This document shows, one piece after another, positions 19,902 through 35,798 of a stretch of 64,000 nucleotides of DNA. This stretch comes from Pelobacter sp. (GTDB taxonomy: Bacteria > Desulfobacterota > Desulfuromonadia > Geobacterales > Pseudopelobacteraceae), in NCBI GenBank assembly GCA_030824515.1, contig JAVBXN010000021.1:124001-188000 (forward strand). The letters run 5' to 3'. A model generated the notes under the pieces. It did no database searches and had not been told where the DNA came from. It worked only from the letters and a program-made list of their open reading frames with translations. Each line of letters begins with the position of its first letter. Positions within the stretch are counted from its first letter, which is position 1. The position numbers and the translations under genes were made by a program.

Positions 19902-20035
19902 TTAGAATAATCAGCCATAGCACTTGATTTAATTTTATATTGTAGTATCTATATAGATTGCTATATTAGTAAGAGTGATTTTTAACCTGGGTGTGTTTGT
20001 AATACTGCAGACCAACCGGCGAAAGGACAAAGGAA

Positions 20036-21655
20036 ATGTTCACTGTTTTCTCAAACCGATCTATTGCAACAAAACTGCTGGCGGCGTTTGCCATCATAGC
20101 CATTATTACCGGCATAGTCGGATTTTGCGGAGTTTACAACATCCTCGGGCTCAACCGCTCAAGCAGCGCGCTCTACAGCCAGGGAGTCCAACCTTTGGCC
20201 CTGCTTGGCCAACTGGGCATGGCCGCCCAGAAAGCGCGGGTGAATCTGCGCGGCATGATGATCGACACCGAACGGGAACGGATGGAAGCCAATGCCGATG
20301 CGGTCGGCCAGCGCTATGATGAGGTCGATGCGCTTATCCGGAAACTGGGGTCGGGAACCGGCGATAAGGAACTGGATGCGCTGCGCAAGCTGCTGCAGGA
20401 GTACCGCCCGGTATGGCAGGAGGTGATCAGGCTGCACCTGTCGGGCAACCCCACGGGCGCACTCGAGATCATGCAGAGTGGCGCTCTGGATACGGAGAAA
20501 AAAATAGAAGCCGCGCTGAGGGATTTGATAGCGGCCTACACCAAGGATGCCCAGAAACGGGGAGAAGACAACTCTCGCATGGCCAAACTGGCCAATGCGA
20601 CCATGATTTCGTTTTCGGTGGCCGGTGTCCTGCTGGCATTTATCCTGGGACTTATCAGCGCACGGATGATCAACCGGCCACTCAGGAAAGCGGTTGACTT
20701 TGCCAACCTGATTGCCTCCGGTGATCTCACCCACAAGGAGGAATGTCACTCGGGCGATGAGACAGGGCAACTTATTCTGGCCATGAACGGTATGACCGAC
20801 AGGCTTCACGGCATTGTCAGCCAGGTATCCGGCACCTCGACCCAGGTAGCGGAGGCAGCCGCGCAACTGCACAGCACCGCAGAACGTATCGCCAACGGTG
20901 CCGAGGAGGTTGCGGCACAGGCCGCCACGGTCGCCACCGCCGGCGAAGAGATGTCGGCTACCAGCGGTGATATCGCCCAAAACTGCCAGATGGCCGCGGA
21001 AGGAGCACAGCGGGCTTCAGAGGCGGCCCAAAGCGGGTCGGCGGTGGTAAACGCCACTATTGCCGTAATGGGTCAGATCACTGACAAGGTTCAGGAGTCA
21101 GCCCGAACGGTGGACAGCCTTGGAGCACGGTCCGATCAGATCGGTGCGATCATCGGCACTATCGAGGATATTGCCGACCAGACCAACCTGCTGGCGCTGA
21201 ACGCCGCGATTGAAGCCGCCAGGGCCGGTGAGCAGGGGCGTGGATTCGCGGTCGTGGCCGACGAAGTACGGGCGCTGGCCGAACGCACCTCACGCGCCAC
21301 CCGCGAGATCGGGGACATGATCAAGGCCATCCAGGGTGAAACCAGGGGAGCTGTCGCGGCAATGGAACAGGGTGTCAGCCAGGTCGAGGCCGGTACGGTT
21401 GAGGCGGCCCGCTCAGGTGAATCATTGGGAAATATCCTGCAGCAGATCAGCGATGTTGCCATGCAGGTGAACCAGATTGCAATCGCAGCCGAAGAGCAGA
21501 CCGCCACCACCAGCGAGATTTCCAACAATATGTCGCAGATAACCGACGTCGTACACAAAACATCTCAAGGCGCCAATGAGTCGGCTCAGGCCGCCGCCAG
21601 GCTTAACGACTATGCCGAGGAACTTCAAAGGTTGGTACGGCAGTTCAAACTGTAA
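20036..21655 (+). CDS. Methyl-accepting chemotaxis protein (4HB sensor)
   Basis: The 539-residue receptor has TM1 at about 11-31, a periplasmic 4HB sensor (about 32-185), TM2 at about 188-208, HAMP and a signalling domain almost colinear with the two minus-strand receptors ([19 protein letters not shown]). It lacks a C-terminal tether motif (ends RQFKL). A perfect palindrome TCTATATAGA lies in the AT-rich upstream interval at 19948-19957. The gene ends in the terminator at 21673-21717. Confidence 0.92.
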
Positions 21656-21672
21656 TCCAGCTTCTATCAAAA

Positions 21673-21717
21673 CCAAGCCCCTCAGCCTTACTGACAAGCA
21701 AAGGCGGAGGGGCTTGG
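21673..21717. terminator. Long hairpin between convergent genes
   Basis: CCAAGCCCCTC-A-GCCTT (21673-21689) pairs with AAGGC-G-GAGGGGCTTGG (21701-21717) around an 11-nt loop. That gives sixteen base pairs with one internal mismatch. It separates the chemoreceptor gene from the convergent hybrid kinase gene and can serve either strand, though T-runs are weak. Confidence 0.65.
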
Positions 21718-21748
21718 CTATAGGGTTGCATCACTCTTACACTCCTGC

Positions 21749-23869
21749 TCACCAGACCTGATCCAACACCTCCCTGATCTTGCCCAGCAGCACCTGTACC
21801 GTAACCGGTTTGGCCATAAAACCGACCCCTTCTTCAATCAGCCCCTTCTGTTCGATGATATCGGCGGTATAACCGCTGGAGAAGAGTACCCGGACCTGTC
21901 TCCCCTCTTTTCTGACCGCGTCATAAACCTCGCGTCCGTTCATTTTGGGCATGACCACATCCAGCAGCAACAGCTGAATCCTGTCGTTATTGGCGCGATA
22001 TTTTGCCAGCGCATCCTCGCCGTCCAGCGCCTCGATCACGTGATAGCCGTAATCCTCCAGCGCGTGCACCATGAAACTTCTGACGCTGTCATTGTCCTCG
22101 GCCAGCAGAATCGTTTCCGTCCCACCAGCCACCTGCACGGTTGATTCGCTCTTGCGCGGCAAAATGCATGATTTTACCAGTGGAAGATAGATCTTGAAAC
22201 ATGTTCCCTTGCCAATCTCGCTGTACACGGTTATTTCACCGCCATGCTGCTTGATGATCCCGTAGACGATGGATAGTCCCAGGCCGGTTCCCTTTCCGAC
22301 CTCCTTGGTGGTGAAAAAAGGTTCGAAAATTCTCTGGCGGGTAACTTCGTCAATCCCGCAGCCCGTATCTGATACGGTGATTTTGGCATAAGGCCCGGGT
22401 TTGAGCACGGTGCCGAGCATTCCATCCGTCAACTCGATACATTCGGTTTTGATACTGAGAACTCCGCCTCTGGGCATCGCATCGCGCGCATTGACCGCCA
22501 GGTTCATCAGCACCTGCTCGATTTGTCCGCAATCGGCCATGACCACCAGTTCTTCGGATGCAAAAGAACAGTGCAGCTCAATATCCTCACCAATCACCCG
22601 ACGCAGGATCTTGTCGATGGTCCTGACGATCTCGTTGATCTCCTCGGGCCTGGTTTCCATGAACTGTTTCCGACTGAAGGCCAACAGGCTGTTGGTCAAC
22701 CTTGAGGCCTTGTCGGCAGCGTCCAGGATGTCATCGGTATAATGAACAAGCGCGGAATTTTCCAGTTTGGCGCGCAGGATGCTGCCAAATCCCATGATCA
22801 CGGTCAGGATATTGTTGAAGTCGTGGGCCACCCCCCCGGCCAGGGTACCGATCGCCTCCATCTTCTGCGACTGCCTGAGCTGCTCCTCCAGTCTCTTGTA
22901 GGAGGTGATGTCGCGGCCCTCGGGAATCAGCATCACTACCTTTCCCGCCGCATCGATAATCGGCTTCAGTGAAAAATCGATATAATGCGTCGCCCCATCG
23001 GGCGATTGACAGGTTGCCTCGAAACGGACAAACTCGCCGGATGCCGCCTGCAGAACAGCATTGCGCGCACGTTCGCGCAACTCGTCGGAATACGTCCACC
23101 AGAGCGTCTCCCAAAATGGCCTGTTCAAAACCTCGGATTCGGTCGAACCGCAGAAATCCAGCGCGGTCCGGTTGACTTCCAGCATGGTCCCCTCAGGCGT
23201 GGTCAGCCCGATCAGCTGGAAGGTCTGATCGAAAATGGCGCGGAACTTCTGCTCACTGGTTCGCAACGCCTCATGGGCCAGTTGCAGCTCCTCAACCTTC
23301 TCCTCCAGCAAAATGGCCTGTTCCTGAAGCTGCTCCTGCGCTGTCTGGCGCTCGGCAATTTCATCCTCCAGCTCACGGTTGGCAACGGCCAGGTCAATGG
23401 TGCGCGCCTCTACCCGCTCTTCCAGCAGTTCGTTGGCCTCCTTCAGTCGCCGGGTCAAATCGCGCAGGCTCAGATGTACTTCGACCCTGGCCAGCAATTC
23501 TTCCTGCTGGAACGGCTTGGTGACATAATCCACCGCGCCCGCTTCCAGTCCCTGCACCTTGTGCCCGGTTTCCGCCAGCGCCGACATGAAGATAACCGGG
23601 ATATCCCTGGTACTCTCCTGCCGCTTCAGTCGGCGACAGGTCTCATAGCCGTCGATGCCCGGCATCATGATATCCAGAAGGATCAGGTCCGGCTTGGCAT
23701 AATCCGCCCGACTGACGGCGCTCTCGCCATCCTCGGCCACCAGCACCGAAAAATTGAACCCGGTCAGGCAATCGCGGACCACGGTCAGATTGTTCATATC
23801 GTCGTCAACGACCAGAATCACAGGTTTGCGGCCATAGAATTGCAACCTGATCCGATCTTCAGGATTCAT
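21749..23869 (-). CDS. Soluble hybrid histidine kinase (REC-PAS-HisKA-HATPase-REC)
   Basis: The 706-residue cytoplasmic protein begins with a receiver (VILVVDDD, phospho-acceptor in [10 protein letters not shown], and TKPF). A coiled coil (about 130-205), a PAS domain (about 210-330) and a HisKA dimerisation motif ([10 protein letters not shown]) follow. Next come a HATPase domain (NAVNARDAM-type N-box, [17 protein letters not shown]) and a second receiver ([20 protein letters not shown]). It starts at 23869, where ATGA overlaps the stop of the upstream kinase gene, and GGAGAA precedes it. With the binding protein and membrane kinase it forms a three-gene sensory operon next to the peptide locus. 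No DNA-binding output domain is encoded here. Confidence 0.9.
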
Positions 23870-26187
23870 ATTTCTTCTCCACGACATTGATTAACCAGTG
23901 CCAGCAAAGCCTTGGTCTTGCAACTACCGGCAAGCTCCTTGAGCCGGCCGGCAAAATTATGATATCGGGCATCCGCTGCTTCCAGTGCGACGGCCCACTC
24001 TTCCACTCCCGACATATCGCCCCTCATGGCCAGATCATAAAGCTCGTCAAGCTCTGATGAAGGGGGCGCCAATGGTTCCTGGCCGTCCAAAGAGACAAAA
24101 GATTCCCTGACCGGGGTGACGAATTCCACGGTTTCCCACTCTATCCCCAGCCGGCAACCGATTTTTTCCAGCAACAGGTCGATGCAGATCGGCTTTAGCA
24201 CGAAATCGTCGCAGATCTCGATAAACTCGTTCCTCTGTTCGCTGTCGGTAACCGAGGCCGATGCGCCGATAATCCCGGTCCGGTCCAACAGCGGATTGGA
24301 GCGCATCAAGCGGGCCGCGACCAGCCCATCCATCACCGGCATCACCAGATCCATCAGCACCAGATCCGGCTGTTGTTCATTCACCATATCCAGCGCTTCC
24401 TGCCCGTTTGAAGCGGTAGCAACCTTGAAACCGAGCGGGTCCAGCAGTGAAACCAGCAACGAGGTGTTACCCACATTATCATCAACCACCAAGATGCTTT
24501 TGCGCTCGCCACAATAACCGGTTACCGACAACTCACCCTTCTCCAGGATATGTTCCGGGTCGGTTACCGGCGGCAGCGACAGTTGCATACGGAAGACGCT
24601 ACCTTTGCCCAGCTCGCTCTCCACGGTCAAGCTGCCATCCATCAGTTCCAGCAGATGGCGGGTGATATTCAGCCCGAGCCCGGTACCCTGGCGCGGCTGA
24701 CCTTTGCCGGCCAGCTGGGTAAACGGTTCGAAGATCGCTTCCAGCTTGTCGGCCGGGATACCCTCGCCGGTATCCAGAACGTCACAGCGGAAGACACCTC
24801 CCCCTTGATGATCATAGGCCACACGCAGGGTCACGCTTCCCTTTTGGGTATACTTGACCGCGTTGGAGAGCAGGTTCAACAGGATCTGGCGCAGTTTGCG
24901 CTCATCACCGCGTACGTACTGCGGTAATGGCGACACCTCCTGGTACTGGAAGAGCAGCTCTTTCTCCTCGGCGTTCAAACGGGTCAGGTTAAGGGCCTGC
25001 CGCACAAGAGCCGGCAAGTCGAAAGCAAACTGTTCGATATCCATCTTGCGGGCCTCGATCTTGCCCACATCGAGGATATCGTTGATCAGCGTCAGCAGGT
25101 GCTCGCCGCTGCTGCGCATGATTTCGAGCTGCTGGCGCTGGGTCTCGTTCAGGTTTTCCTGGCGCTTCAGGATCTGGGCATAACCGAGGATCGCGTTCAA
25201 CGGCGTGCGCAGTTCGTGGCTCATGCTGGCCAGAAATTCGCTCTTGGCGCGGTTGGCGGTTTCGGCAGCAACCTTAGCGGTCTGCAACTCCACCACACCC
25301 TTGGCAAACGCCCCTGCCAGGTCATTTACCCCCTGCACCAGATTGTGCCATTCCCCCTCGAACCGGCCCGCATCGCTGCGGCTGTCCAGTCGCCCTTCCT
25401 GCACCGCAACGATCAGCCCGTCCGTCTCCTGCAGAACCATGCGAATGGTGTGGCGCATCGCCGAGAACGAGTTGGCCAGGGCCCCCACCTCGTCTTGCTG
25501 GTGGATTTCGAACTCGCGGCTGAAATCACCGTGGGAGACGTCATCGGCCATCCTGACGATCTGGCGCAGCGGCCGGGTGGCCACCCCCATCAGGAAATAG
25601 GCCGCCAGGCAGCTGGCTGCGGCAAAAGCCAATGACAGCGCCACGCCGCGCGCCACGATGCGCCGCTCGTTCTCGCGCAGCGTGGCCTTGGAAAAGCTGA
25701 TCCTGATCCAGCCGATGGTTTCCCTGACCTTCTGCCCGCTGTCCATACCGCTGATAATATCGAAATCATCTTGCAACTTCTCGGTGAATACCGGTGCGTA
25801 AAAGACAAAAGCGTCCTTTTCCTCGGACATTGAGAGCGACGGTGATGTGGGGGGGGTGGTCAGGTGGCGGGCCAACGCCGGGCCGTTATGAATCAGCGGC
25901 GTCATCCTGTTGTCATAAAAGGTGACGGTCGCCACCTCGGTGTTGGACCTGAGGAAAGCGGCGGTGCTCTTCAACAGTTCCGGATTGCCGGAAAGAATCG
26001 GCAGCTCACCGATCTTGGTCGCCAGCGTGGTGATCGCCTCGGCGCGCTTGATGATCTCGCTGCGGATGACCCCCTTGCCTGCCCGGATCGACTCCCAGGT
26101 ATGGAAGAACGAAATCAGCAGCAAAAGCGGGATCATGAAAAGCAGCGCCTTGACGCGGAAGGTTATTTTCAGGCTCAGTCGCTTCAT
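23866..26187 (-). CDS. Membrane hybrid histidine kinase (HAMP-HisKA-HATPase-REC)
   Basis: The 773-residue sensor has TM1 at about 12-30, a periplasmic region of roughly 155 residues, TM2 at about 186-208, and HAMP ([19 protein letters not shown]). HisKA ([11 protein letters not shown]), HATPase ([24 protein letters not shown]) and a receiver ([19 protein letters not shown]) follow. The last roughly 70 residues form a helical tail that lacks an HxxKG-type phosphotransfer histidine. Its start overlaps the stop of the solute-binding protein gene by ATGA (26184-26187). The pairing suggests that the binding protein presents a ligand to the periplasmic domain of this kinase. Confidence 0.9.
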
Positions 26188-27050
26188 GGATAAGCCTTCC
26201 TGGCCATGCGCACGAGCTCATCCGGGATATTCAGGCGCATCTTGCGGGCGGTGCCCATATTCAGGTACAGGTCGAACTTGCGCGGAGGGAAGGCCGACTG
26301 CTGGCCGACACTGCCGCTTTTCAGGGCGCGGGTGGCATGCTCGCCGATCACCCGGCCGACATTGACCATATCCACCACCAGTGCCAAAAGCGCCCCTTCC
26401 TTGACATGCCGCTCGGAAATGCCCAGAAGCGGAATCCGCCGCCGGAAAGAGAGCAGGTAGGCCTCTTCCATCGCGGTCGCGGTCATGATGCCACTGTCCG
26501 GCAACAGCAGGATCGCGTCGGCATTATCCAGCTGTTTGAGCATATTGACGAATTCGACGGTATTGTTCACGGAGTGCGAGTTTAGCGGAGAGGAAGCATC
26601 ACCGGCCAGGAGGTTCAGTAATGTACGGCTGCCCACCACCGACACCTGTTTCAGGCCCGGCAGATGGTTCCGCACCAGTTCGGCGTACTCCCCGGCCGGG
26701 GTTGCCATGTAGAAGCCGACCGTATTGGAGCGGCTGACGGCCGGCGGTGTCACCACCATGTCATAGATTACCGGAATCGTTGGGGGCAGGGTCAACGCTT
26801 CGGCCAGCGCCTCGCGCCCCAGCGCCACCACCACCCGCGCCTCCTCCTTTTGCAAAATGGCAGCCAGGTTGCCGCGCACTTCTCCCGGAGCATAGGTTTT
26901 GGTTGAGGCATGCAGGGTCTTGCGCATTCCCTGGGTTACTTCCATAACCGGCTTGAGCTGGGCGTCGGCAATGATCAGCACATCCGCCGCATGGCAGGAC
27001 AGACAGGTCAACAGGATGTATGGCAAGGCATAGAGGATGATTTTGGGCAC
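26184..27050 (-). CDS. Periplasmic solute-binding protein (ABC_sub_bind-like) coupled to kinases
   Basis: This 288-residue protein has a signal peptide (about 1-21, [11 protein letters not shown]) and the two-lobed fold of PF04392-type binding proteins. Examples are [46 protein letters not shown] and [13 protein letters not shown]. Translation likely begins at GTG 27050. No permease or ATPase gene is near. It is instead the first gene of a kinase operon, so I infer a ligand-sensing role. It is clearly paralogous to the protein at 29132-30013: shared segments include EVVVALGKEAL-like, PVI(Y/F)[13 protein letters not shown](L/V)[11 protein letters not shown] and PPRKFD(L/I)YLN. Confidence 0.85.
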
Positions 27051-27406
27051 GGGTCATTTTCTCAGGACATTCAAATAGTCGGGCAACTATAGGTGCAATC
27101 CGGCAAAATATCAACCAAAACGGCACGCAGATATTTCTGCGAAATTGTCAGAAAGCAAAATAAGGCAGCGGCGAATCCCGACTAAAATAATCCGGATTAC
27201 ACAATCATATTAAATTGTTAAGTTTACATACAATATTTTAAAAAACGGTTTTATACGCTTGACAATTGGCCTTGAATGTTATAAACGCTTGAGTTAGTGA
27301 AGATTTTCACATGCATTTTGCGGAAATAGCGACTGTTTAACAGCCGACGGGAAGGCGAGGGCGTCCCCCGCGGATAATACCACACCAACTGAGGAGACCG
27401 GAACAA
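27051..27406. promoter_or_regulatory. Divergent control region of the peptide locus
   Basis: This 356-bp AT-rich interval separates the binding protein-kinase operon from the peptide gene. It contains TTGACA (27259-27264) and TATAAA (27280-27285) with a 15-bp spacer, pointing at the peptide. Two copies of TAnnCGCTTGA (27252-27262 and 27282-27292) lie exactly 30 bp apart on the same face of the helix. A third copy is at 30058-30068, between the TonB receptor and the second binding protein. I see no coding frame here. Confidence 0.5.
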
Positions 27407-27508
27407 ATGAAAACGAGCACCCTGGTAGTACTGGAAAAAGGCAACGATTGCGCATTCGAGGGGCCGCTGGCAGCCTGCTGCTCGGCATCCTTCATACCGC
27501 TTGTGTAA
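27407..27508 (+). CDS. 33-residue Cys-containing precursor peptide (geopeptide-like RiPP)
   Basis: A 33-codon frame starts at ATG 27407, preceded by GAGGAG, and ends at TAA 27506-27508. It begins MKTSTLVVLEKGND, continues CAFEGPLAACC and ends SASFIPLV. The charged N-terminal part could be the leader and the C-terminal part, with C15, C24 and C25 among small residues, the modified core. There is no signal peptide and no GG cleavage motif. Immediately downstream are an intrinsic terminator and, 215 bp on, a radical SAM/SPASM enzyme, the usual arrangement for ribosomally made, radical-SAM-modified peptides. From memory it resembles the predicted Geobacter geopeptide family. The modification (for example a Cys thioether) is inference. 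Confidence 0.75.
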   Translation: MKTSTLVVLEKGNDCAFEGPLAACCSASFIPLV

Positions 27509-27536
27509 TCGATTCCGTTTACAGGTTCAAGAAAAA

Positions 27537-27559
27537 GGGGGAGTAATCCCCCTTTTTTT
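27537..27559 (+). terminator. Intrinsic terminator after the peptide gene
   Basis: GGGGGA-gtaa-TCCCCC followed by seven Ts, preceded by five As, is a textbook terminator 28 bp after the peptide stop codon. It should make the peptide mRNA much more abundant than the maturase mRNA, which would depend on readthrough or a separate start. Confidence 0.9.
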
Positions 27560-27638
27560 GTGTCATTCGAAGAATCAAAATCAAATCCCCCTCGTTCCCA
27601 CTTTCTTAACCCTGATAAACAGGATAGGTGCGTTAACA

Positions 27639-27675
27639 AAGTTATTTTCTGCCTGATAACAGCAGAAAATAACTT
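27639..27675 (+). promoter_or_regulatory. Perfect 14-bp hairpin in the maturase leader
   Basis: AAGTTATTTTCTGC (27639-27652), a 9-nt loop and GCAGAAAATAACTT (27662-27675) form a perfect inverted repeat about 50 bp before the radical SAM gene and 80 bp after the peptide terminator. There is no T-run, so it is not a classical terminator. It could be a regulator binding site, an RNA processing site or an RNA stability element. Confidence 0.7.
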
Positions 27676-27723
27676 CTGACTTACTAGAGGGGGAGGCTTT
27701 ACATCCACCCCTGGAGACCCTAC

Positions 27724-29040
27724 ATGCAGCTGTCCAACTATCTGAAGATCTACCCCTGCCCGGACCAGCCCGGCATGAACCTGGTCTACTCCACCCTGCG
27801 CTCGGCGGTGGTGCTGCTGCCGGACGAGCTGCTGCAGGCGGCCATGAACGGCACGCTGCCCGACCAGGAGCGCGGGATTCTGGCCCGGCTCGACATCCTG
27901 ACTCCGGACCGGGCCGCCGAGCGCGAGCGGCTGCGCACGATCTTCGACACCCCCCGCGCCAATACACCTTTCAGCGCCGTGGTGGTGCTCAACCTGGACT
28001 GTAATCTGGCCTGCCCCTACTGCTACGAGGAGGGTTTCCGCGGCAAACATTACATGAGCGCCGAAACCGCCGCGCTGCTGGTGGAGAGCATCCGCCGCGA
28101 GCGGATTGAAAAAGGGCAGCCGCTGCGGCTGACCTTCTACGGCGGCGAACCGCTGCTCTCCCTGGACCTGATCCGGGCCATCGCCCGGCCGCTGGGTGAG
28201 GCCGCCCGCGAGCGCGGGGTGGCCTTCGGCTTCTCGCTGGTCACCAACGGCACGCTGCTGAACCGCGCCTGCGTCGAGGAGCTGCTTTCCCTGGGGCTCT
28301 CCGGGTCCAAGGTGACTATCGACGGCCCCAGAGAGCTGCACGACAAGAGCCGTCCCTTTGTCTCCGGGCTGGGCAGTTACGAGGCGATCCTGCGCAACGT
28401 GCTGGATATCCACAAGATCGTGCCACTGCAGCTGGGAGGCAACTACACCCGCGACAACTTCCGCGAATTCCCGCGCATGCTGGATGACCTGCTGGCCCGC
28501 GGCATCGATCCGGCCCGGGTCGGTACAATGCTCTTCGCACCGGTGGTGCCCAAAGCGGGCCAGCGGGTGCTGTCCGACTTCAACACCGGTTGCGCCTGTT
28601 CCTATGAGCCGTGGTTGATGGAGGCCGCTCTCTGGCTGCGCGAGGAGACCCTCAAGCGCGGTTTCCCGGCCCCCAAGTCGAAGCTGTCGGCCTGCATGGT
28701 CGAGCTGGAGAACGAGCTGGTGATCAACCACGACGGCTCGCTCTACAAATGCCCGGCCTTCATGGCCTGCCCGGAGCTGCGCATCGGTTCGCTGGCCGAG
28801 GGGATCGCCGACTTTAGCGCGTCACACAACCTGGATCTCTGGAAGAAAGACGAGTGCCTGGAGTGCCCCTACCTGCCAATCTGTTTCGGCGGCTGCCGCC
28901 AGCTGACACTGCTGCGCAACGGGAAAATTGACGAAGCAGACTGCCGCAGGGAGTATTACGATACGGTGCTGGAGCGTATGATCAGGCAGGACCTGGAGTA
29001 CCAGGGAACAAAGCCCGCCGGGCAGCAGGAGAAAGAGTGA
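27724..29040 (+). CDS. Radical SAM/SPASM peptide maturase (geopeptide maturase-like)
   Basis: The 438-residue enzyme carries the radical SAM cluster motif CNLACPYC (C93, C97, C100) and the glycine-rich SAM-binding segment FYGGEPLLS. A cysteine-rich C-terminal SPASM-type region (C324, C343, C349, C378, C381, C387, C391, C407) should hold auxiliary Fe-S clusters. The N-terminal ~85 residues precede the barrel and could recognise the peptide, as RRE-like regions do in other maturases. GGAG precedes the ATG. It should install a radical-mediated modification, such as a Cys-derived thioether, in the adjacent 33-residue peptide; that chemistry is inferred from family behaviour. It probably corresponds to the geopeptide maturase family, recalled but not checked. 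Confidence 0.88.
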   Translation: MQLSNYLKIYPCPDQPGMNLVYSTLRSAVVLLPDELLQAAMNGTLPDQERGILARLDILTPDRAAERERLRTIFDTPRANTPFSAVVVLNLDCNLACPYCYEEGFRGKHYMSAETAALLVESIRRERIEKGQPLRLTFYGGEPLLSLDLIRAIARPLGEAARERGVAFGFSLVTNGTLLNRACVEELLSLGLSGSKVTIDGPRELHDKSRPFVSGLGSYEAILRNVLDIHKIVPLQLGGNYTRDNFREFPRMLDDLLARGIDPARVGTMLFAPVVPKAGQRVLSDFNTGCACSYEPWLMEAALWLREETLKRGFPAPKSKLSACMVELENELVINHDGSLYKCPAFMACPELRIGSLAEGIADFSASHNLDLWKKDECLECPYLPICFGGCRQLTLLRNGKIDEADCRREYYDTVLERMIRQDLEYQGTKPAGQQEKE

Positions 29041-29080
29041 TTCGTTTTCCTGATTCGTTCAAATCTGCGGCTCTCACGTT

Positions 29081-29101
29081 CCTCCCCCTTCAAGGGGGAG
29101 G
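29081..29101. terminator. Bidirectional hairpin between maturase and binding-protein genes
   Basis: CCTCCCCC-ttcaa-GGGGGAGG with flanking purine tract (GATAGGAGGGGG) sits between the convergent maturase and solute-binding protein genes. It resembles a common intergenic palindromic repeat and likely ends both transcripts. Confidence 0.6.
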
Positions 29102-29131
29102 ATAGGAGGGGGATGGTGTGTCTGGCAAAAA

Positions 29132-30013
29132 CTACGGATACACCCGCTTGGCCATTCGCACCATTTCATCGGGAAGATTGATCTTCATCCGCCGGGCCGT
29201 GGCCGTGTTCAGGTAGATGTCAAATTTTCGCGGCGGCGAGGGGGGGAACTGACCGATATCGACCCCCTTCAACGCCTTGGCGGCAGCGGAGCCGATCAAA
29301 CGCCCCACGTTGACCATGTCCACCACCAGCGCCACCAGCGCCCCCTCCTTGACATTGCGCTCCGAAACCCCCAGCAGCGGAATCCCCTTGCGAAACGACA
29401 GCAGGTAGGCCTCGTCCAGCGCGGCCGTGGTCAGCACCGCGGTGTCCGGCAGAAGCAGGATCGCGTCCGCATCCTCCAGTCGGCTGATGGCGCTGACGAA
29501 CTCCGAGCTGTTGCGGACCGTGTAGGAGGCCGGCTGCGGCGCATCGCCCCGCCCCAGGAGGCTGAGCTGGTCGCGGCTCCCCACCACCGCAAACTGCCGG
29601 ATCGAATGCAGGTGCTTGCGGATCAGCTCGCTGTACTCCCTGACCGGGGTGGCCAGGTAGAAACCGGTGGTGTTCGGCCGGTTGATGGCGGGCGGTGTTA
29701 CCACCATGTCGAAGATGACCGGGATGTTGCTCGGCAGCGTCAGCGCCTCGGTCAGCGCCTCCTTCCCCAGCGCCACCACCACCCGCGCCCCCTCGCGATC
29801 CAGCGCGCTGTTAAGCCCGCGCCTGGCCTCTTCCGGCGAGATGATTTTCAGAGAACTCCCCAGGCTCTTGCGGATGCCGGAGATGATCTCGGTTGCCGGC
29901 CTGAGCTGGGTATCGGCCACCACCAGCACTTCGGCGGCCGCTGAAGGGGTGGGGAGCAAAACAATTGTCAAAAGAACCATTGCAACCAGGGATAGTGTCA
30001 TGCGTCTAGGCAT
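29132..30013 (-). CDS. Second periplasmic solute-binding protein (ABC_sub_bind-like)
   Basis: This 293-residue protein has a signal peptide (about 1-27, LLPTPSAAAE) and the same two-lobed PF04392-like architecture as the kinase-linked copy at 26184-27050. They share VVALGKEAL-, FDMVVTPPA-, LLLPDTAV- and [21 protein letters not shown]-type segments along their whole length. It follows the TonB receptor by 97 bp on the same strand and again lacks an ABC permease or ATPase. I infer that it captures what the receptor imports, possibly the matured peptide, either delivering it to the kinase or competing for it. Confidence 0.85.
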   Translation of the reverse strand: MPRRMTLSLVAMVLLTIVLLPTPSAAAEVLVVADTQLRPATEIISGIRKSLGSSLKIISPEEARRGLNSALDREGARVVVALGKEALTEALTLPSNIPVIFDMVVTPPAINRPNTTGFYLATPVREYSELIRKHLHSIRQFAVVGSRDQLSLLGRGDAPQPASYTVRNSSEFVSAISRLEDADAILLLPDTAVLTTAALDEAYLLSFRKGIPLLGVSERNVKEGALVALVVDMVNVGRLIGSAAAKALKGVDIGQFPPSPPRKFDIYLNTATARRMKINLPDEMVRMAKRVYP

Positions 30014-30110
30014 TGTCGTTACTGCTCTTTCTGTATCGTGAACGATAATATTTAATGTAATCGCTTGAGTATGTTTCAGGAGGCGCCATTGCCGCCCGGA
30101 ACCTGAGCGG

Positions 30111-32087
30111 TTAAAACCTGAACTTGAGCCCGCCCTCGACCCAGCGCCCCGGGTTGGGGTAGAGGGATGAAGTATAGCGGTCGCCGCTGAACAGGTTATG
30201 GATGGTCAGGAAACTCTCCAGCGTGGTCTTGTCGCTGGTGCGGAACTTCTTGGTGGCGGTCAGGTCCCAGATGAAGGTGTCGTAGTACGGGTTCGGATAG
30301 GCCGGCATGGTTGGGACGAAGTCCCACCAGACGTAGTTGCCGGACAGGAGCATGCTGAACGAGCGGCGGTCGTCGTACTTGATCCCCACCAGCCAGGAGT
30401 AGGTGTCCCAATTGTTACTGCTCCGGTCGGACGGGATCGCGCCGGCCTTGGTGTGGGCATAGGCGTGCCCCAGCTTGAGCGACAGGTTGTAGAAGGGCAC
30501 GCTCTCGGCCTCCAGCTCGTAGCCCTGGCGGGTCACGTCGCCGCCGTTGACGTACTGCTTGTAGGGGGGATTGGCAGCAATGGCCTCGGCTGACATGGCC
30601 TTGGTGGTCTCATGGCGGAAGAGGGTTGCCTTCAGGTTGACCAGCTCGGCCAGGCCGGACTCGAGCCCGAGCTGGTAGGACCAGCCGTACTCGGCCGTCA
30701 GCTGCGGGTTGGGAAGGAAGAACAGCCCCTGTGCCTTGGTGTAGCTCAAGGGGGGCGAAGTGAAGCCGCGCGCGGCAGAGGCACGGGCCACGCTGTGTTC
30801 GCCCAGCTCCCAGGTCAGCCCCAGGCTGGGGCTGACGAAGTAGCCGGTGACGCTGTCGTGGTCCAGGCGCACGCCGGGGGTCAGGGCCAGCGGCCCGAAC
30901 TCGACCGTGTCGTTGGCAAACAGCGCCCAGCGGTCGATGGTGGGATAGACGGTCAGGGTGGCCGGCAGACCGAAGGACTGGTAGAGCGGTCCGGCGTTGG
31001 TGGTCTGGTCCAGGGCGCCGTGGCTGGCCTCCCCCCCCACGGTCAGGGTCTGGATGCCGCTGGTCCAGGTGGCGCGCAGGTTGCCGCCGACGGTCTCCTC
31101 GTCGTAGATGTTCTGCTTGAAGAGCGAACCGTCGGCCAGGAAATTTACCGGAAAGTCGGCATGGGACTTGAAGAAGTGCAGGCCGCCGCGAAGGGTCAGC
31201 TCGGGGGTGGCGCGGTACTCGATATTGCCGGTCAGGAACAGGTTGCGTTGAATAGTCCTGGCGCTGATGCCGAAAGCCGGCACCTCGCCCGCATTCTGTT
31301 CCGGGTTGCTGTAGCCGGCCGTCAGGGTGATGTCCAGGTCGCGGTTGGGGGTCAGCAGCAGCTTGCCGAACAGGCTGTTGCGGCGGTAGTCACGGTTGTT
31401 GCGCAGACCGTCCGAGGCCTGCTGCCCGGCGTAGAGGTAGTAGCCCAGCGGCCCGTTCTTGCCGGCCAGCTCGGCCGCCGTGTCGCGGGAGTTTCCCTCG
31501 CCGAAGGAGCCGCTGAGCATGCCGCCCGGCAGCGCCTTGTCGCCGGTGTTGCGGGTGATGATGTTGACCACCCCCCCCAGAGCCGAGCCCCAGGCCGAGG
31601 AGGCGGCCCCCTTGATGATCTCGATCCGCTCCACGATTCTGAGCGGAATGAAGCTGGTGTCGGCGTTGCCGCCGGCCAGGAAGTTGACCGGCATGCCGTC
31701 CAGCAGCACGGTCACGTGGCGGTCCTCGGAGCCCTGGATGTGCAGCAGCGAGGGCGAGTTGAACTCGTTGAGCGAGAAATCCACGAAGAGTCCAGGCACC
31801 CTGGCCAGCACCTCGCTGACGCTGTTGGCGTTCATCGTCTCGATCTCTTTGGCGGTGATCACGGTCATGTTCTCGGCCACCTGGGTCAGCGGCTTTTCGC
31901 TGCGGGTGGCGGTCTGAACGTACAGCTCCTTCTCCTCCCAGAACAGCAGCAGTTCATCTTCGGAAGGTGTGTTCATGGCGACCTGCAGCCGTTCGGCCGC
32001 TCCGGCCTGGGTGGAAAATAACAGCGCCGATCCCAGCAGCGTAGTCGCCAGCAGCTTCGTGATCCAGCTTTTATCTTGTCGTCTCAT
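30111..32087 (-). CDS. TonB-dependent outer membrane receptor
   Basis: The 658-residue protein has a signal peptide (about 1-30, ending STQAGAAE). A plug domain (about 70-180) contains VSEVLARVPGLFVDFS and VERIEIIKGAASSAWGSALGGVVNIIT, and a 22-strand barrel ends in the terminal aromatic RWVEGGLKFRF. GGAGG precedes the ATG. The plug and barrel resemble BtuB/CirA-type receptors; the substrate is not readable from sequence. There is no cobalamin riboswitch upstream, and the locus context suggests uptake of the modified peptide or a peptide-metal complex. It leads a two-gene operon with the second binding protein. Confidence 0.9.
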   Translation of the reverse strand: MRRQDKSWITKLLATTLLGSALLFSTQAGAAERLQVAMNTPSEDELLLFWEEKELYVQTATRSEKPLTQVAENMTVITAKEIETMNANSVSEVLARVPGLFVDFSLNEFNSPSLLHIQGSEDRHVTVLLDGMPVNFLAGGNADTSFIPLRIVERIEIIKGAASSAWGSALGGVVNIITRNTGDKALPGGMLSGSFGEGNSRDTAAELAGKNGPLGYYLYAGQQASDGLRNNRDYRRNSLFGKLLLTPNRDLDITLTAGYSNPEQNAGEVPAFGISARTIQRNLFLTGNIEYRATPELTLRGGLHFFKSHADFPVNFLADGSLFKQNIYDEETVGGNLRATWTSGIQTLTVGGEASHGALDQTTNAGPLYQSFGLPATLTVYPTIDRWALFANDTVEFGPLALTPGVRLDHDSVTGYFVSPSLGLTWELGEHSVARASAARGFTSPPLSYTKAQGLFFLPNPQLTAEYGWSYQLGLESGLAELVNLKATLFRHETTKAMSAEAIAANPPYKQYVNGGDVTRQGYELEAESVPFYNLSLKLGHAYAHTKAGAIPSDRSSNNWDTYSWLVGIKYDDRRSFSMLLSGNYVWWDFVPTMPAYPNPYYDTFIWDLTATKKFRTSDKTTLESFLTIHNLFSGDRYTSSLYPNPGRWVEGGLKFRF

Positions 32088-32176
32088 CGTTTGCCTCCGC
32101 GGCCGCTAACAAAATCAAATTCGTATACTACTGAATTATCGTCTGTTGTCAACAGCGAGTGCCGCTATTTTAATCA

Positions 32177-32205
32177 GATTGATGATTTTGTGTATCAAAT
32201 CAATC
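32177..32205. promoter_or_regulatory. Inverted repeat upstream of the TonB receptor
   Basis: GATTGAT (32177-32183) and ATCAATC (32199-32205) are perfect 7-bp arms around 15 bp, with further inner symmetry (GAT/ATC). It lies about 90 bp upstream of the receptor start in a 234-bp divergent interval and is a candidate operator. Confidence 0.4.
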
Positions 32206-32254
32206 GTTTTTTCAAACTGTATTTGTATAAAGCGGATAATATTTGGAAAACATA

Positions 32255-32281
32255 TTGACATTCATATGTCTGCATTATATT
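32255..32281 (+). promoter_or_regulatory. Promoter of the OsmC-like gene
   Basis: TTGACA (32255-32260) and TATATT (32276-32281), spacer 15 bp, precede the gene. The -10 element begins a 23-bp block that recurs exactly at 35023-35045. Confidence 0.55.
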
Positions 32282-32298
32282 TTGTGCATATACACATT
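32276..32298 (+). promoter_or_regulatory. Repeated -10/operator block, copy 1
   Basis: The block runs from TATATT through the near-palindrome TGTGCATATACACA and is identical over 23 nt to 35023-35045. The palindrome lies just downstream of the -10 element, around the transcription start, so a bound protein would block the promoter. It precedes the OsmC-like gene. Confidence 0.75.
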
Positions 32299-32321
32299 GC
32301 TTGGAAAGAAAGGGAAATAGC

Positions 32322-32732
32322 ATGGAAATGAGAATAATATTCCCGGGCGGCAAAAGGGTTGACGCGGAATTGAACGGCAGGGTCATCAGCAGCGACCAAC
32401 CGCCTGGCGGTGGCGGCGAAGGGGCGGCGCCGACTCCATATGACTACTTTCTGGCCTCCATGGGCACCTGCGCCGGGATCTATGTGCTCAGTTTCTGCCA
32501 GGAGCGGGGCATCAGCACCGAGGGGCTGGAACTTACCCAGCGCATGGATTTCGTCAGCGAAGGGGGCAAGAACCGGCTGGCAAAAGTGGATCTGCAGATT
32601 ACCCTGCCACCCGGTTTTCCGGTCAAATATCATAACGCGATCATCAAATCCGCGGAACTCTGTGCCGTGAAAAAGGCGCTGATGAATCCGCCGGACTTCG
32701 AAATATCAATCCAGGACACAACAGACAAATAA
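32322..32732 (+). CDS. OsmC/YhfA-family protein
   Basis: The 136-residue protein fits the OsmC superfamily. Its first strand-rich part is followed by the helix with the first conserved cysteine (MGTCAGIYVLSFC) and a later conserved cysteine in AELCAVKKAL. OsmC/Ohr proteins reduce peroxides through a Cys pair, while YhfA-like members have no proven activity. I place the start at ATG 32322 behind AAGGGA; a TTG at 32301 would be upstream in frame. Its promoter block is shared with the NifX-like gene at 35062, tying it to that sulfur/iron-cluster cassette. Confidence 0.82.
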   Translation: MEMRIIFPGGKRVDAELNGRVISSDQPPGGGGEGAAPTPYDYFLASMGTCAGIYVLSFCQERGISTEGLELTQRMDFVSEGGKNRLAKVDLQITLPPGFPVKYHNAIIKSAELCAVKKALMNPPDFEISIQDTTDK

Positions 32733-32753
32733 ACCTGAAAACGGCAATTCGCT

Positions 32754-32879
32754 CACGCAAAGGCGCAAAGACGCAAAGAAAGTCAATATCTTACAATCCA
32801 TAAAGGCCTCACCCAAATGGTTAAGTCCAGACGTTTTCTAACGCTTTGTTTTTCTTTGCGAACTTAGCGCCTTTGCGCG
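32754..32879. repeat. Palindromic intergenic repeat (CGCAAAG type)
   Basis: Arms at 32754-32781 and 32851-32879 are nearly perfect inverted copies: CACGCAAAGGCGCAAAG then ACGCAAAGAAA against CGCGCAAAGGCGCTAAG then TTCGCAAAGAAA. They enclose about 70 bp. This CGCAAAGGCG motif is a familiar dispersed intergenic sequence in many bacteria, so I read it as a MITE/REP-like element. It contains no gene. Confidence 0.7.
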
Positions 32880-32938
32880 ATCAACTGCTTTTTGTAGGAT
32901 AAATATCTTCAATCTGCTTAAAACCGGAGGAAACACCC

Positions 32939-33352
32939 ATGAATAGCGCAATACTGTATCGGACACAAACGACCAAGACCCTGAGGGAATTCGTGCATGC
33001 GCTGGCTGCCGCGGGCCAGAAGCGCGGCTTCATCATCCACAACGAAAGCACGATGGAAATGGCCCATACCTTCGGCAAACATGGAGTCAAGGTTGGAGCC
33101 GGCTTCGATCTGCACATGATCCAGATCTGCAAACCCGAGAAAGCCGCCGCCAGCCTTTCGCAAAACCCGGAGCGGGCGGCACTGATGCCCAAGTTCATTA
33201 CGACCTTTACCAGCAACGGCATGACCGAGATCCGCATGCTGCGCTACGGGCGAACGATGATCGAAGCGCTGGTGTTGGATGACCCGGACTTTGCCTCCTC
33301 CCTGGAAGAGAGCTATAACGCGATCCAGAAGATGATCGAAGAGTCGCTCTGA
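32939..33352 (+). CDS. DUF302 family protein
   Basis: The 137-residue soluble protein matches the DUF302 pattern: an N-terminal beta strand, a helix in TLREFVHALAAAGQKRGFIIHNE, then GAGFDLHMIQICKPEKAAASL and a C-terminal FITTFTSNGMTEIRMLRYGR stretch. The function of DUF302 is unknown, but members often accompany thiol/redox and metal-handling genes. GGAGG precedes the ATG. It ends one base before the permease gene, so the two are coupled. Confidence 0.8.
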   Translation: MNSAILYRTQTTKTLREFVHALAAAGQKRGFIIHNESTMEMAHTFGKHGVKVGAGFDLHMIQICKPEKAAASLSQNPERAALMPKFITTFTSNGMTEIRMLRYGRTMIEALVLDDPDFASSLEESYNAIQKMIEESL

Positions 33353-33353
33353 T

Positions 33354-34325
33354 ATGTGGCGCTTTCTTATAGCCATCAACAAGAATCTGGTGCTGGCAAT
33401 TCCGGCCACGATGCTGGCCGGTTTCGTTTGCGGCCTGTTGGTTGATCCTGCTTTCATGAAAAGCCTGATCATACCGTTTACCTTTTTGATGGTCTATCCG
33501 ATGATGGTGACCCTCAAAATCCGTTCAGTGCTGGAGGGTGGCGATACGCGGGCGCAGTTGATGACCCAGGCGATCAATTTCCTGGTGATTCCCTTTGTCG
33601 CCTACGGCATCGGCAGGGTTTTCTTTGCCGAGCGCCCGTTTCTGGCGCTGGGACTGTTGTTGGCATCGCTGGTGCCGACCAGCGGCATGACCATTTCCTG
33701 GACCGGTTTCGCCAAGGGCAACCTGGCGGCGGCTGTCAAGATGACCGTGGTGGGCCTGATTCTGGGATCGCTGCTGACCCCGTTTTATATCCGTATTCTG
33801 ATGGGAGCCCAGGTCGATGTGGACATGCTTTCGGTGATGAGGCAGATCCTGGTGGTCGTCTTCCTGCCGATGCTGGCCGGCTACGCCACCCAGCGCTGGG
33901 CCCTGAAGCGCTATGGACAGAAAGTATTCCAGGAGCAGATTTCCCCGCGCTTTCCGGGGCTCTCAACCGTCGGCGTGCTGGGTATCGTCTTTATCGCGAT
34001 CGCGCTCAAGGCCCGCAGCGTGGCCGACAGCCCGGCCCTGCTGGTTACGATCCTGATACCGCTGCTGCTGCTATACCTTTGCAACTACCTGCTCAGCACC
34101 CTGGTCGGAAAAGCCTTCCTGCCGCGTGGCGACGCCATCGCGCTGGTCTACGGCACGGTCATGCGCAACCTGTCGATCGCGCTGGCGGTGGCAATGAACG
34201 CCTTCGGCAAGGCCGGCTCGGAAGCGGCGCTGGTGATCGCGCTGGCCTATATCATCCAGGTACAGTCGGCCGCCTGGTACGTGCGCCTGACCGACAAGAT
34301 CTTCGGAGCGAGGAGTGAATCATGA
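33354..34325 (+). CDS. BASS/ACR3-like membrane transporter
   Basis: The 323-residue protein has about ten membrane helices of the bile acid:sodium symporter/arsenite ACR3 superfamily. Typical segments are LIIPFTFLMVYPMMVTLKI, LGLLLASLVPTSGMTISWTGFAKGN and GDAIALVYGTVMRNLSIALAVAMNAFG. ACR3 export of arsenite needs a conserved Cys in TM4, which is not evident here, so the substrate is probably another anion or a sulfur compound. Its stop overlaps the methyltransferase start (ATGA at 34322-34325). Confidence 0.82.
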   Translation: MWRFLIAINKNLVLAIPATMLAGFVCGLLVDPAFMKSLIIPFTFLMVYPMMVTLKIRSVLEGGDTRAQLMTQAINFLVIPFVAYGIGRVFFAERPFLALGLLLASLVPTSGMTISWTGFAKGNLAAAVKMTVVGLILGSLLTPFYIRILMGAQVDVDMLSVMRQILVVVFLPMLAGYATQRWALKRYGQKVFQEQISPRFPGLSTVGVLGIVFIAIALKARSVADSPALLVTILIPLLLLYLCNYLLSTLVGKAFLPRGDAIALVYGTVMRNLSIALAVAMNAFGKAGSEAALVIALAYIIQVQSAAWYVRLTDKIFGARSES

Positions 34326-34930
34326 AAACCACCAACTGGGATGAACGTTACAGCGAACCGGGCTTTACCTACGGCACGACCCCCAACTCGTTCCTGGTTT
34401 CGGTCGTGGACAGGATCCCGCCGGGCCGGGTTTTGATGCTGGCCGAAGGTGAAGGGAGAAATGCCGTTTATCTGGCCTCCCTCGGATATCAAATCACCGC
34501 GGTTGACGGCTCCGCCGTCGGACTGGGCAAGGCGCTTGAACTGGCGGATGAGCGCGGTGTCAGCCTGACCACAATCGTGGCCGATCTGGCTGGATTCGAG
34601 ATCGAGCCGGAAAAATGGGATGCGGTCGTCTCCTGTTTTTGCCATATCCCGTCGGCCATCCGGATTCCCCTGCACCGTAAGGTCGTCCAGGGGCTCAAGC
34701 CTGGAGGCGTATTTGTGCTGGAGGCATTCAGCAAGGAACAGATGGATTATGATACCGGCGGTCCCAAGTCTCTCGATATGCTGATGTCACGGGAAGAGCT
34801 GCTGCAGGAACTGGACGGTCTGGATTTCATGCATGCCGCCACGCTGGTTCGCGACGTCAAGGAGGGGCGCGGGCATACCGGCCTGGCTTCGGTGGTGCAG
34901 ATACTGGCCGTCAAGCCGTTAACCCCTTGA
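34322..34930 (+). CDS. Class I SAM-dependent methyltransferase (TehB-like)
   Basis: The 202-residue enzyme has a Rossmann SAM site (VLMLAEGEGRNAVYLASLGYQITAVDGS) and the WDERY start typical of TehB/thiopurine-type methyltransferases that act on chalcogens, metalloids or small thiols. It overlaps the transporter gene by 4 nt, suggesting that the pair acts on one toxic compound. Which compound (tellurite, selenite, arsenite or a thiol) cannot be said from the sequence. Confidence 0.85.
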   Translation: MKTTNWDERYSEPGFTYGTTPNSFLVSVVDRIPPGRVLMLAEGEGRNAVYLASLGYQITAVDGSAVGLGKALELADERGVSLTTIVADLAGFEIEPEKWDAVVSCFCHIPSAIRIPLHRKVVQGLKPGGVFVLEAFSKEQMDYDTGGPKSLDMLMSREELLQELDGLDFMHAATLVRDVKEGRGHTGLASVVQILAVKPLTP

Positions 34931-34978
34931 TTTTATGTGAGTGATGTTCTCTTTTTGTTGATCTTGGCAGCAATGTTT

Positions 34979-34992
34979 TGTGCTTATGCACA
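34979..34992. promoter_or_regulatory. Upstream operator half of the NifX-like gene promoter
   Basis: TGTGC-TTAT-GCACA is a perfect 5-bp-arm palindrome related to the TGTGCATATACACA site 50 bp downstream. It lies just upstream of the -35 element at 35001. Confidence 0.6.
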
Positions 34993-35000
34993 ATAACCTG

Positions 35001-35028
35001 TTGACTTTTAAATCCATCGGCATATATT
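35001..35028 (+). promoter_or_regulatory. Promoter of the NifX-like gene
   Basis: TTGACT (35001-35006) and TATATT (35023-35028) with a 16-bp spacer, flanked on both sides by TGTGC palindromes. Confidence 0.6.
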
Positions 35029-35045
35029 TTGTGCATATACACATT
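35023..35045 (+). promoter_or_regulatory. Repeated -10/operator block, copy 2
   Basis: Identical over 23 nt to 32276-32298, containing the -10 TATATT and the near-palindrome TGTGCATATACACA, 17 bp before the start codon of the NifX-like gene. Identity over both promoter and operator implies co-regulation of the two genes. Confidence 0.75.
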
Positions 35046-35061
35046 AAACTGGAGGTACACA

Positions 35062-35442
35062 ATGAAAGTTTGTTTTCCGGTAATGGAAAATCAAGGGTTG
35101 GAGAGTCGGGTATTCGGTCATTTTGGTTCCGCGCCCGGATTTGTCGTGGTGGACATGGTCACCAGCGAGGTGACGGCGATCAACAACAGCGATCAGATCC
35201 ATCAGCATGGGGCCTGCAATCCGGTGGCCGGTCTTGGCGGTTACCAGGTGGATGCAATCGTGGTCGGCGGCATCGGCGGCGGTGCGCTGCATAAACTGAA
35301 CAGCGCCGGTATGCGAGTTTTCAAGGCGATGGAAGGGACCGTCACGGAAAACATGGCGCTGTTCCGCACTAACGGACTGCCGGAATACATGCCGGGCCAC
35401 ACCTGCGGCGGACATGGCCAAAGCCATGGCTGCTCCCACTAA
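35062..35442 (+). CDS. NifX/NifB-type dinitrogenase cofactor-like protein
   Basis: The 126-residue protein has the Nitro_FeMo-Co fold (MKVCFPVMEN, VFGHFGSAPGFVVVD, then GGIGGGALHKLNSAGMRVF) and a His/Cys-rich tail (CGGHGQSHGCSH) that could bind metal. Stand-alone members of this family occur in many anaerobes without nitrogenase and are thought to handle Fe-S or heterometal clusters. GGAGG precedes the ATG. It is followed within 2 bp by a DUF134 gene and then an IscU-like scaffold gene, a recurring trio. Confidence 0.85.
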   Translation: MKVCFPVMENQGLESRVFGHFGSAPGFVVVDMVTSEVTAINNSDQIHQHGACNPVAGLGGYQVDAIVVGGIGGGALHKLNSAGMRVFKAMEGTVTENMALFRTNGLPEYMPGHTCGGHGQSHGCSH

Positions 35443-35444
35443 GC

Positions 35445-35777
35445 ATGACACGTCCACGTAAACCGAGAATCTGCAACTGCCCGCACCGGGCAGGATACTC
35501 AGCGGTGTTCAAACCGGCCGGAACCCCCCTGAAGGATATGGAAATCATCCCGCTGGCCCACGACGAACTGGAAGCGCTGTACCTGTGTGACGGCGAGGGG
35601 AAGACCCAGGAAGAGGCCGGGGTGTGCATGGGTGTATCGCGCGGCACGGTGCAGCGCCTGTTGGCCGGAGCCCGCTGCAAGGTAGCCCGGGCGCTGGTCG
35701 GGCAGAAGGCGCTGGCTATCTCCGGCGTCGGGCCGGCAACGGGCCAGGTTTCCGTTCCGGAGGAAACAGGGCTGTGA
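35445..35777 (+). CDS. DUF134 helix-turn-helix protein
   Basis: The 110-residue protein starts MTRPRKPRICNCPH, typical of DUF134. Its central helix-turn-helix resembles sigma-70 region 4 (LEALYLCDGEGKTQEEAGVCMGVSRGTVQRLLAGARCKVA). The Cys residues near the N-terminus (CNCP) and others could bind a metal or an Fe-S cluster. It lies between the NifX-like and IscU-like genes. I suggest it as the regulator that reads the TGTGC palindromes, but there is no direct evidence. Confidence 0.82.
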   Translation: MTRPRKPRICNCPHRAGYSAVFKPAGTPLKDMEIIPLAHDELEALYLCDGEGKTQEEAGVCMGVSRGTVQRLLAGARCKVARALVGQKALAISGVGPATGQVSVPEETGL

Positions 35778-35798
35778 GCGTACGAAAGGAATCTCACC

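Follow-up and report, generated by a model that had tools for sequence, protein, structure and literature searches.

The peptide gene analysed here lies on the forward strand at positions 27407–27508 of the window, which is the whole 64,000-nucleotide stretch under study. It runs from an ATG to a TAA and encodes a predicted geopeptide precursor of 33 residues, MKTSTLVVLEKGNDCAFEGPLAACCSASFIPLV, consisting of a leader with the sequence LVVLEKG, a Cys–Cys (CC) pair at residues 24–25 and the tail SASFIPLV. A ribosome binding site, GAGGAG (27391–27396, +), is located ten bases upstream of the ATG, and the stop codon is separated from the maturase gene by an intrinsic terminator (27537–27559, +), a GC stem (GGGGG–AGTAAT–CCCCC) followed by seven T, which is present in eight of eight orthologs. 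An earlier note, made from the bare sequence, had recognised all three elements: its frame is exact, and the ribosome site and terminator are present as it described them. Further upstream is a sigma-70-like promoter, TTGACA-N15-TATAAA (27259–27285, +), in which TTGACA is found in all eight orthologs and the TATA element follows 15–17 nt on; a generic promoter scan does not report it because the spacer range of the scan is 16–18. The 5′ leader also contains a GC-rich hairpin (27344–27373, +) that is kept in most of the window’s ortholog group; it is the only copy found in the genome at up to 3 mismatches. Its structure support is weak, with up to two sequences breaking most pairs, and it was rejected as a supported structure on a single two-sided change in nine pairs. 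Rfam matches in the region 20000–36000 (two, both far below gathering scores) were likewise discarded.

The seven close orthologs (L063–L069, with maturases 73–90% identical) encode peptides of 32–33 residues in which all three cysteines are present. Pooled over the window and these seven, the pN/pS ratio is 0.17 for residues 2–12 and 0.22 for residues 13–25, which indicates purifying selection, and 1.0 for the tail, at a pS of 0.5–0.6. In the window’s group the peptide leader is conserved and the tail is fast-evolving. The ORF is confirmed as real, not a chance reading frame, and from its conservation it is close to certain to be the substrate of the adjacent maturase.

The maturase gene (27724–29040, +) encodes a radical SAM/SPASM protein, as the earlier note had said of the precursor’s neighbor. 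The protein matches the geopeptide maturase model TIGR04280 over profile positions 1–428 of 428 with 628.6 bits (cut-off 400), and its third-best NCBIfam match is the model of PapB, a ranthipeptide maturase. It comprises an N-terminal RRE-like domain, the C93–C97–C100 motif and a seven-cysteine SPASM pattern. Cysteines 93, 97, 100, 324, 343, 378, 381, 387, 391 and 407 are invariant in an alignment that took in 51 of 81 maturases; the first three we take to be the radical SAM triad and the other seven the SPASM pattern. By sequence, the closest solved structure is 5wgg (E 6e-32), which, together with 5why, is presumably the SCIFF maturase CteB. In the predicted structure (pLDDT 90, pTM 0.88), residues 4–427 superimpose on 5why/5wgg, both titled as concerning thioether formation (Z 26.1–26.2, 383–393 residues aligned, first in Foldseek), residues 81–430 superimpose on an anaerobic sulfatase maturase (Z 26.4), and TigE follows at Z 23.4; the VIA-align Z values cover only hits that Foldseek had already found. 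CteB is the top-scoring fold that also covers the N-terminal part, where residues 7–71 (three strands plus helices) are presumably the RRE, and the model of the maturase is similar to CteB along almost the entire chain.

A precursor that adjoins a radical SAM enzyme with a SPASM domain has the gene context of sactipeptides and ranthipeptides. The earlier note’s class, a sactipeptide- or ranthipeptide-like precursor, is upheld to the extent that PapB is one of the closest family matches and CteB the closest of the solved structures, but the note missed the specific NCBIfam family, geopeptide. The SPASM match is evidence for the enzyme class, not for the product; a thioether RiPP is the likely product of the peptide gene.

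Maturase relatives number 220 in named genomes, and the best 80 of the 220 (L063–L142) plus the window give 81 loci. In 78 of them the maturase gene is preceded by a small ORF whose product has a leader motif, CC and a short tail; this is the conservation beside homologous maturases on which the earlier note had staked its reading. A script that required the motif and a ribosome site found 76; the peptides of L078 and L136 were added by hand from frame translations because both miss the motif, and their upstream stretches are a few bases off in upstream-region comparisons, the start offset having been guessed. In the three loci without a peptide (L076, L085, L137) the contig extends only 0 to 189 nt upstream. 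A peptide motif of this kind occurs twice in 280 kb of far-flank DNA. Taking one peptide from each of the 78 loci, the length is 27–42 residues and the tail has 7–10 residues in 76 peptides, with only 4 of 649 tail residues acidic. The core pair is CC in 76 peptides and CxC in two, and it is the sole core side-chain feature common to all 78. The three cysteines that the earlier note called a hallmark do not characterize the family: some Cys precedes the pair in 17 of the 78 loci, the window’s eight among them, and the first Cys of the window’s peptide (NDCAF) is specific to its ortholog group. The gap between peptide and maturase has a median of 69.5 nt, and across the family 29 of 76 loci have a terminator after the peptide gene, compared to 0.6 in shuffles.

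Against the curated geopeptide model TIGR04229, the window’s peptide scores 14 bits (E 0.035), below the cut-off of 30. Among the same 147 genomes TIGR04229 has hits over its cut-off in 14 and TIGR04280, the model of the maturase, in 101; therefore, TIGR04229 covers few of the peptides. Geopeptide is used here in a wider sense of our own, as the peptide of a TIGR04280 maturase, encoded by a short upstream ORF with [LIVM]x[VI][LI][DE]xG and a C-terminal CC. The window’s peptide carries this motif, with CC near the C terminus, and is by its sequence a divergent geopeptide despite the score below the model’s cut-off. The tandem peptides of L111, like those of L139, agree in CC and tail and differ in their leaders, with the codons of CC and tail identical in L111 and showing three synonymous differences in L139; the tails of tandem or paired peptides differ in L088, L119 and L148.

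Several other features of these loci were observed. The pentamer GTCCA, absent from the window, precedes the start codon of the peptide by 21–67 nt in 34 of 77 loci, where mononucleotide shuffles would give 3.1, and is possibly a leader or operator element. An ORF of 254 codons without a Pfam match is inserted between peptide and maturase at L066:9053–9814. Geopeptide loci with a receptor and a binding protein also occur in L140, a record titled Thermodesulfovibrionia, and L138 (Pseudomonadota), these lineages being given by the record title alone. Sigma-54 sites scoring at least 8 number 6 forward and 5 reverse in 79 upstream regions (15 in 395 shuffles, i.e. 3 per 79). With an NtrC-type regulator nearby there are 2 forward and 5 reverse in 27 regions (0.55 expected per strand), and with none nearby 4 forward and 0 reverse in 50 (0.9 expected). 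Sigma-54 promoters were set aside as a family feature and are suggestive for single clades only. In viral contigs 35 stretches fit a pattern, none of which is a maturase relative, and two plasmid records (best E 2) were rejected as not credible.

The most informative part of the locus is its surroundings, which the earlier note did not link to the peptide: a TonB-dependent receptor, PF04392 proteins and a hybrid kinase provide the best functional clue. Divergent from the peptide gene is the gene of periplasmic binding protein 1 (PF04392; 26184–27050, −), which overlaps by 4 bases that of a hybrid histidine kinase (23866–26187, −) with HAMP, HisKA, HATPase and receiver domains in Pfam; this gene in turn overlaps that of a second kinase/receiver protein (21749–23887, −). 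On the other side, convergent with the maturase gene, are the TonB-dependent receptor of the geopeptide-linked subfamily (30111–32087, −) and, downstream of the receptor gene, periplasmic binding protein 2 (PF04392; 29132–30013, −). When the 848 ORFs of the 81 loci are clustered, 76 loci have a TonB-dependent receptor of one subfamily, 64 a PF04392 protein and 57 a histidine kinase. The PF04392 count is low because an antisense ORF was chosen instead in L099, L104, L117 and L123; the kinase is missing or unrecognised in 24 loci, and the five receptor-less loci have at most 523 nt upstream. In the usual layout kinase, binding protein and receptor share one strand and diverge from peptide and maturase; in the window, by contrast, the receptor gene is downstream of the maturase, not upstream. 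Among solved receptors, those closest in sequence are the colicin I receptor and BtuB, and the two nearest solved relatives of the L129 binding protein carry only uncharacterised names.

The earlier note’s remark that no dedicated protease or transporter is nearby is supported. Neither an exporter nor a leader protease recurs among the examined neighbors, and no exporter or protease Pfam family is matched by more than two of 69 close neighbors (49 loci; among the 25 of 102 families listed), Lon occurring in two. A TonB-dependent receptor beside a precursor is also the gene context of methanobactin-like metallophores. MbnB/MbnC-type genes, sought without a model of their own, were not recognised among clusters in at least 4 of the 81 loci, nor in the listed portion (25 of 102) of the Pfam families of the 69 neighbors.

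The base rate of the receptor linkage was estimated in 22 genomes with 80 plug domains in about 87.9 Mb. A plug domain lies within 7 kb of 20 of 22 over-cut-off maturases, where 1.4% is expected for each, and 23 of the 80 plug domains are near a maturase. The two maturases without a nearby plug are the C57 copy of the window’s own genome and a contig-edge fragment (G011:C168). A wider survey covered 297 genomes of the phylum, 26 of them over the maturase cut-off, and all 22 over-cut-off loci from outside the window’s order were taken; L179 (307 bits) falls below the cut-off and was excluded, and L158 is not independent because it is from the same record as L104. Among the 22, 19 have a receptor and 18 a PF04392 protein, which is missing or cut off in L161, L168, L173 and L174. 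A peptide is found in 17, of which 14 were detected by a looser motif and three by eye (L163, L164, L175); no peptide was found in L168, L169, L172, L173 and L174. L169 and L172 do have a receptor, and the receptor-less L168, L173 and L174 have 0.8 to 1.8 kb of contig upstream. Outside the order the receptor gene mostly runs in the same direction as the peptide gene, so the association of the genes is more durable than their order.

The maturase-linked receptors are, by their sequences, a subfamily of their own. A profile of linked receptors gives 504–752 bits for 18 held-out linked receptors and 95–194 bits for three of the five unlinked receptors of the window’s genome, and a receptor tree separates the linked receptors from these three unlinked ones with a support of 0.999. 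In 39 genomes there are 48 subfamily receptors above 400 bits, of which 38 are within 7 kb of a maturase and 10 are not; a subfamily receptor is near 34 of the 41 maturases. The binding protein is kept beside nine of the 10 maturase-less receptors (L180–L189), and the DNA examined around them, cut on the upstream side in L189, contains no geopeptide motif. Therefore, their ligand may be something else, or they may be listeners. The own-genome C57 maturase and those of L190 and L191 have neither a receptor nearby nor a recognisable peptide. Two loci of the window’s genome deserve mention. At L145:7656–15352 a TonB receptor, a PF04392 protein and two kinase/receiver proteins form an operon in which no geopeptide motif is present; the sensory module thus extends beyond geopeptides. 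At L144:7438–11947 a maturase is located beside a kinase and an NtrC-type regulator, with no receptor or recognisable peptide.

L150 and L152 each have two cassettes with different peptides and one receptor per cassette, and in genome G061 each of the three loci (L153–L155) has its own receptor. A single receptor accompanies two maturases both in L148 and in L151; L148 encodes four similar peptides, and in L151 none was found by the motif.

Receptor, tail and maturase were compared across 86 loci, 10 of them in the window’s group, after the likeness of the tails had been noticed. The maturases of the window’s group belong with their own order (median identity 0.51, versus 0.41 to Pro-bearing loci from outside it; clade support 0.999), whereas their receptors group with those from outside the order (identity 0.41, versus 0.31 to other receptors of the order) in a clade of 26 members with a support of 1.0. 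This clade includes the receptor of L086, which is placed like those of the window’s group, and excludes that of L157, a locus outside the order whose maturase, receptor and tail are all of the in-order type. Five of 11 peptides in the window’s group carry a Pro at the sixth residue after CC, as do 12 of 17 from outside the order and 2 of 67 others; the seven bearers among the 78 peptides of the 81 loci are the window, L063, L065, L069, L070, L113 and L119, and the remaining tails of the window’s group are hydrophobic and lack Pro. These placements, set against that of the maturase, imply that receptor and tail travel together and the maturase does not. The pairing against the maturase tree in the window’s lineage is an observation of one or two events, seen post hoc. 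Mantel tests on 61 of the 78 loci give 0.33 for tail and receptor given the maturase and 0.31 for leader and receptor; because the leader correlation matches that of the tail, they do not discriminate the two.

The ORF, its conservation, the maturase family, the predicted fold and the near-universal linkage to a receptor and a binding protein are what any interpretation has to accommodate. Because the peptide–maturase pair is nearly always found beside the same receptor and binding protein, the peptide may be released, recaptured and sensed, and a role as ligand of the receptor–sensor set would be the simplest account of the linkage. That the geopeptide is a thioether RiPP which a TonB receptor and a sensor of its own recognise outside the cell is a proposition we hold at even chances; its chemistry, export, ligand identity and signalling are what we infer. 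The N-terminal RRE-like domain of the CteB-like maturase would bind the LVVLEKG strand, and the radical SAM/SPASM core would convert Cys residues, CC above all, into thioethers. Judging by gene anatomy, the terminator after the peptide gene would leave peptide transcript in excess over that of the maturase. The released product, probably CC with an acid-poor tail of about eight residues, would leave the cell and be recognised at the surface by the receptor; in the periplasm the PF04392 proteins would bind it, and the co-encoded histidine kinase would report it. Such a self-sensed peptide could be a pheromone, or a metallophore sensed in its loaded form. A more ambitious version, in which a closed make–release–recapture–sense loop spans the phylum, each core tail is exchanged together with its matching receptor and receptor-only genomes are listeners, is tentative, and we lean somewhat against it.

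The strongest competitor keeps the geopeptide inside the cell as a cofactor or regulator and leaves the receptor, binding proteins and kinase to another ligand, such as a metal complex or a corrinoid, with shared regulation holding the genes together. A linkage found at nearly all loci and retained through rearrangements of gene order across the phylum makes this unlikely, as do the single receptor per tandem cassette, the agreement of receptor and tail type against the maturase tree in one lineage and a tail that is short, poor in acidic residues and fast-evolving. It retains some weight from the lack of a recurrent exporter, the 10 of 48 subfamily receptors with neither a maturase nor a peptide motif around them, the likeness of the receptors to the colicin I receptor and BtuB, and the geopeptide-free operon in the window’s own genome. 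Somewhat less probable is a modification other than a thioether, e.g. epimerisation or C–C linking, on a peptide that is nonetheless the true substrate; it would be compatible with the other steps proposed. Products are unreadable from sequence and the maturase is also similar to anaerobic sulfatase maturases and TigE, but CC/CxC as the only shared core side-chain feature, the PapB match and CteB as the best solved relative argue for thioethers. A bacteriocin-like toxin against relatives, with receptor and kinase serving uptake, immunity or competitor sensing, would suit the fast-evolving tail and the related peptides in many species; it is improbable given that no recurrent immunity or exporter gene was recognised among the examined neighbors and that the locus is kept beside a binding protein and often a sensor kinase. 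A chance ORF, to which only the sub-cut-off score of the curated model could point, is already contradicted by purifying selection and conservation and can be dismissed.

Among known systems, the geopeptides of NCBIfam (TIGR04229/TIGR04280) share with the window the enzyme family and the frame, position and size of the peptide; the window differs in the low score of its peptide (14 bits), the extra spacer Cys, the hydrophobic tail and the place of the receptor gene. SCIFF peptides, made by CteB, and PapB ranthipeptides are thioether RiPPs. Their enzymes are the closest in kind, 5wgg/5why by structure including the N-terminal part and PapB by model match, but here the peptide is short, a single CC pair is constant, and a TonB receptor, a binding protein and a kinase are linked. 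PQQ is a radical SAM/SPASM-made peptide product with a TonB receptor of its own, PqqU, to which only a generic match is seen in the window (45.5 bits versus a cut-off of 1200). Methanobactin is a modified peptide whose operon, according to passages of PMC3621798, often includes a TonB-dependent transporter for re-uptake; the same passages describe a signalling pair in four Methylosinus operons, a MATE exporter in 13 operons and FecIR-like signalling. Geopeptides would share with it a modified peptide and a TonB-dependent receptor gene. As far as those passages go, methanobactin differs in having different biosynthetic enzymes, a MATE exporter and FecIR-like signalling, the latter two unrecognised at geopeptide loci, where metal binding would be hypothetical.

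In the 5.39 million open papers searched, outside which most subscription papers fall, there is no mention of ‘geopeptide’, TIGR04229 or TIGR04280, and no on-topic title appears among the matches listed for ranthipeptides in Geobacter or for receptor, radical SAM and RiPP together; two Geobacter passages of PMC4289311 concern lasso peptides. The geopeptide family has been named in a profile library and apparently not tested. With a receptor and a sensor linked to it, this orphan family yields a hypothesis that can be tested. If the proposed reading is true, relatives of Geobacter would possess a peptide-based sensing or metal-scavenging loop, and the family would offer ready-made matched peptide–receptor pairs from dozens of species as well as a compact enzyme for studies of thioether formation.
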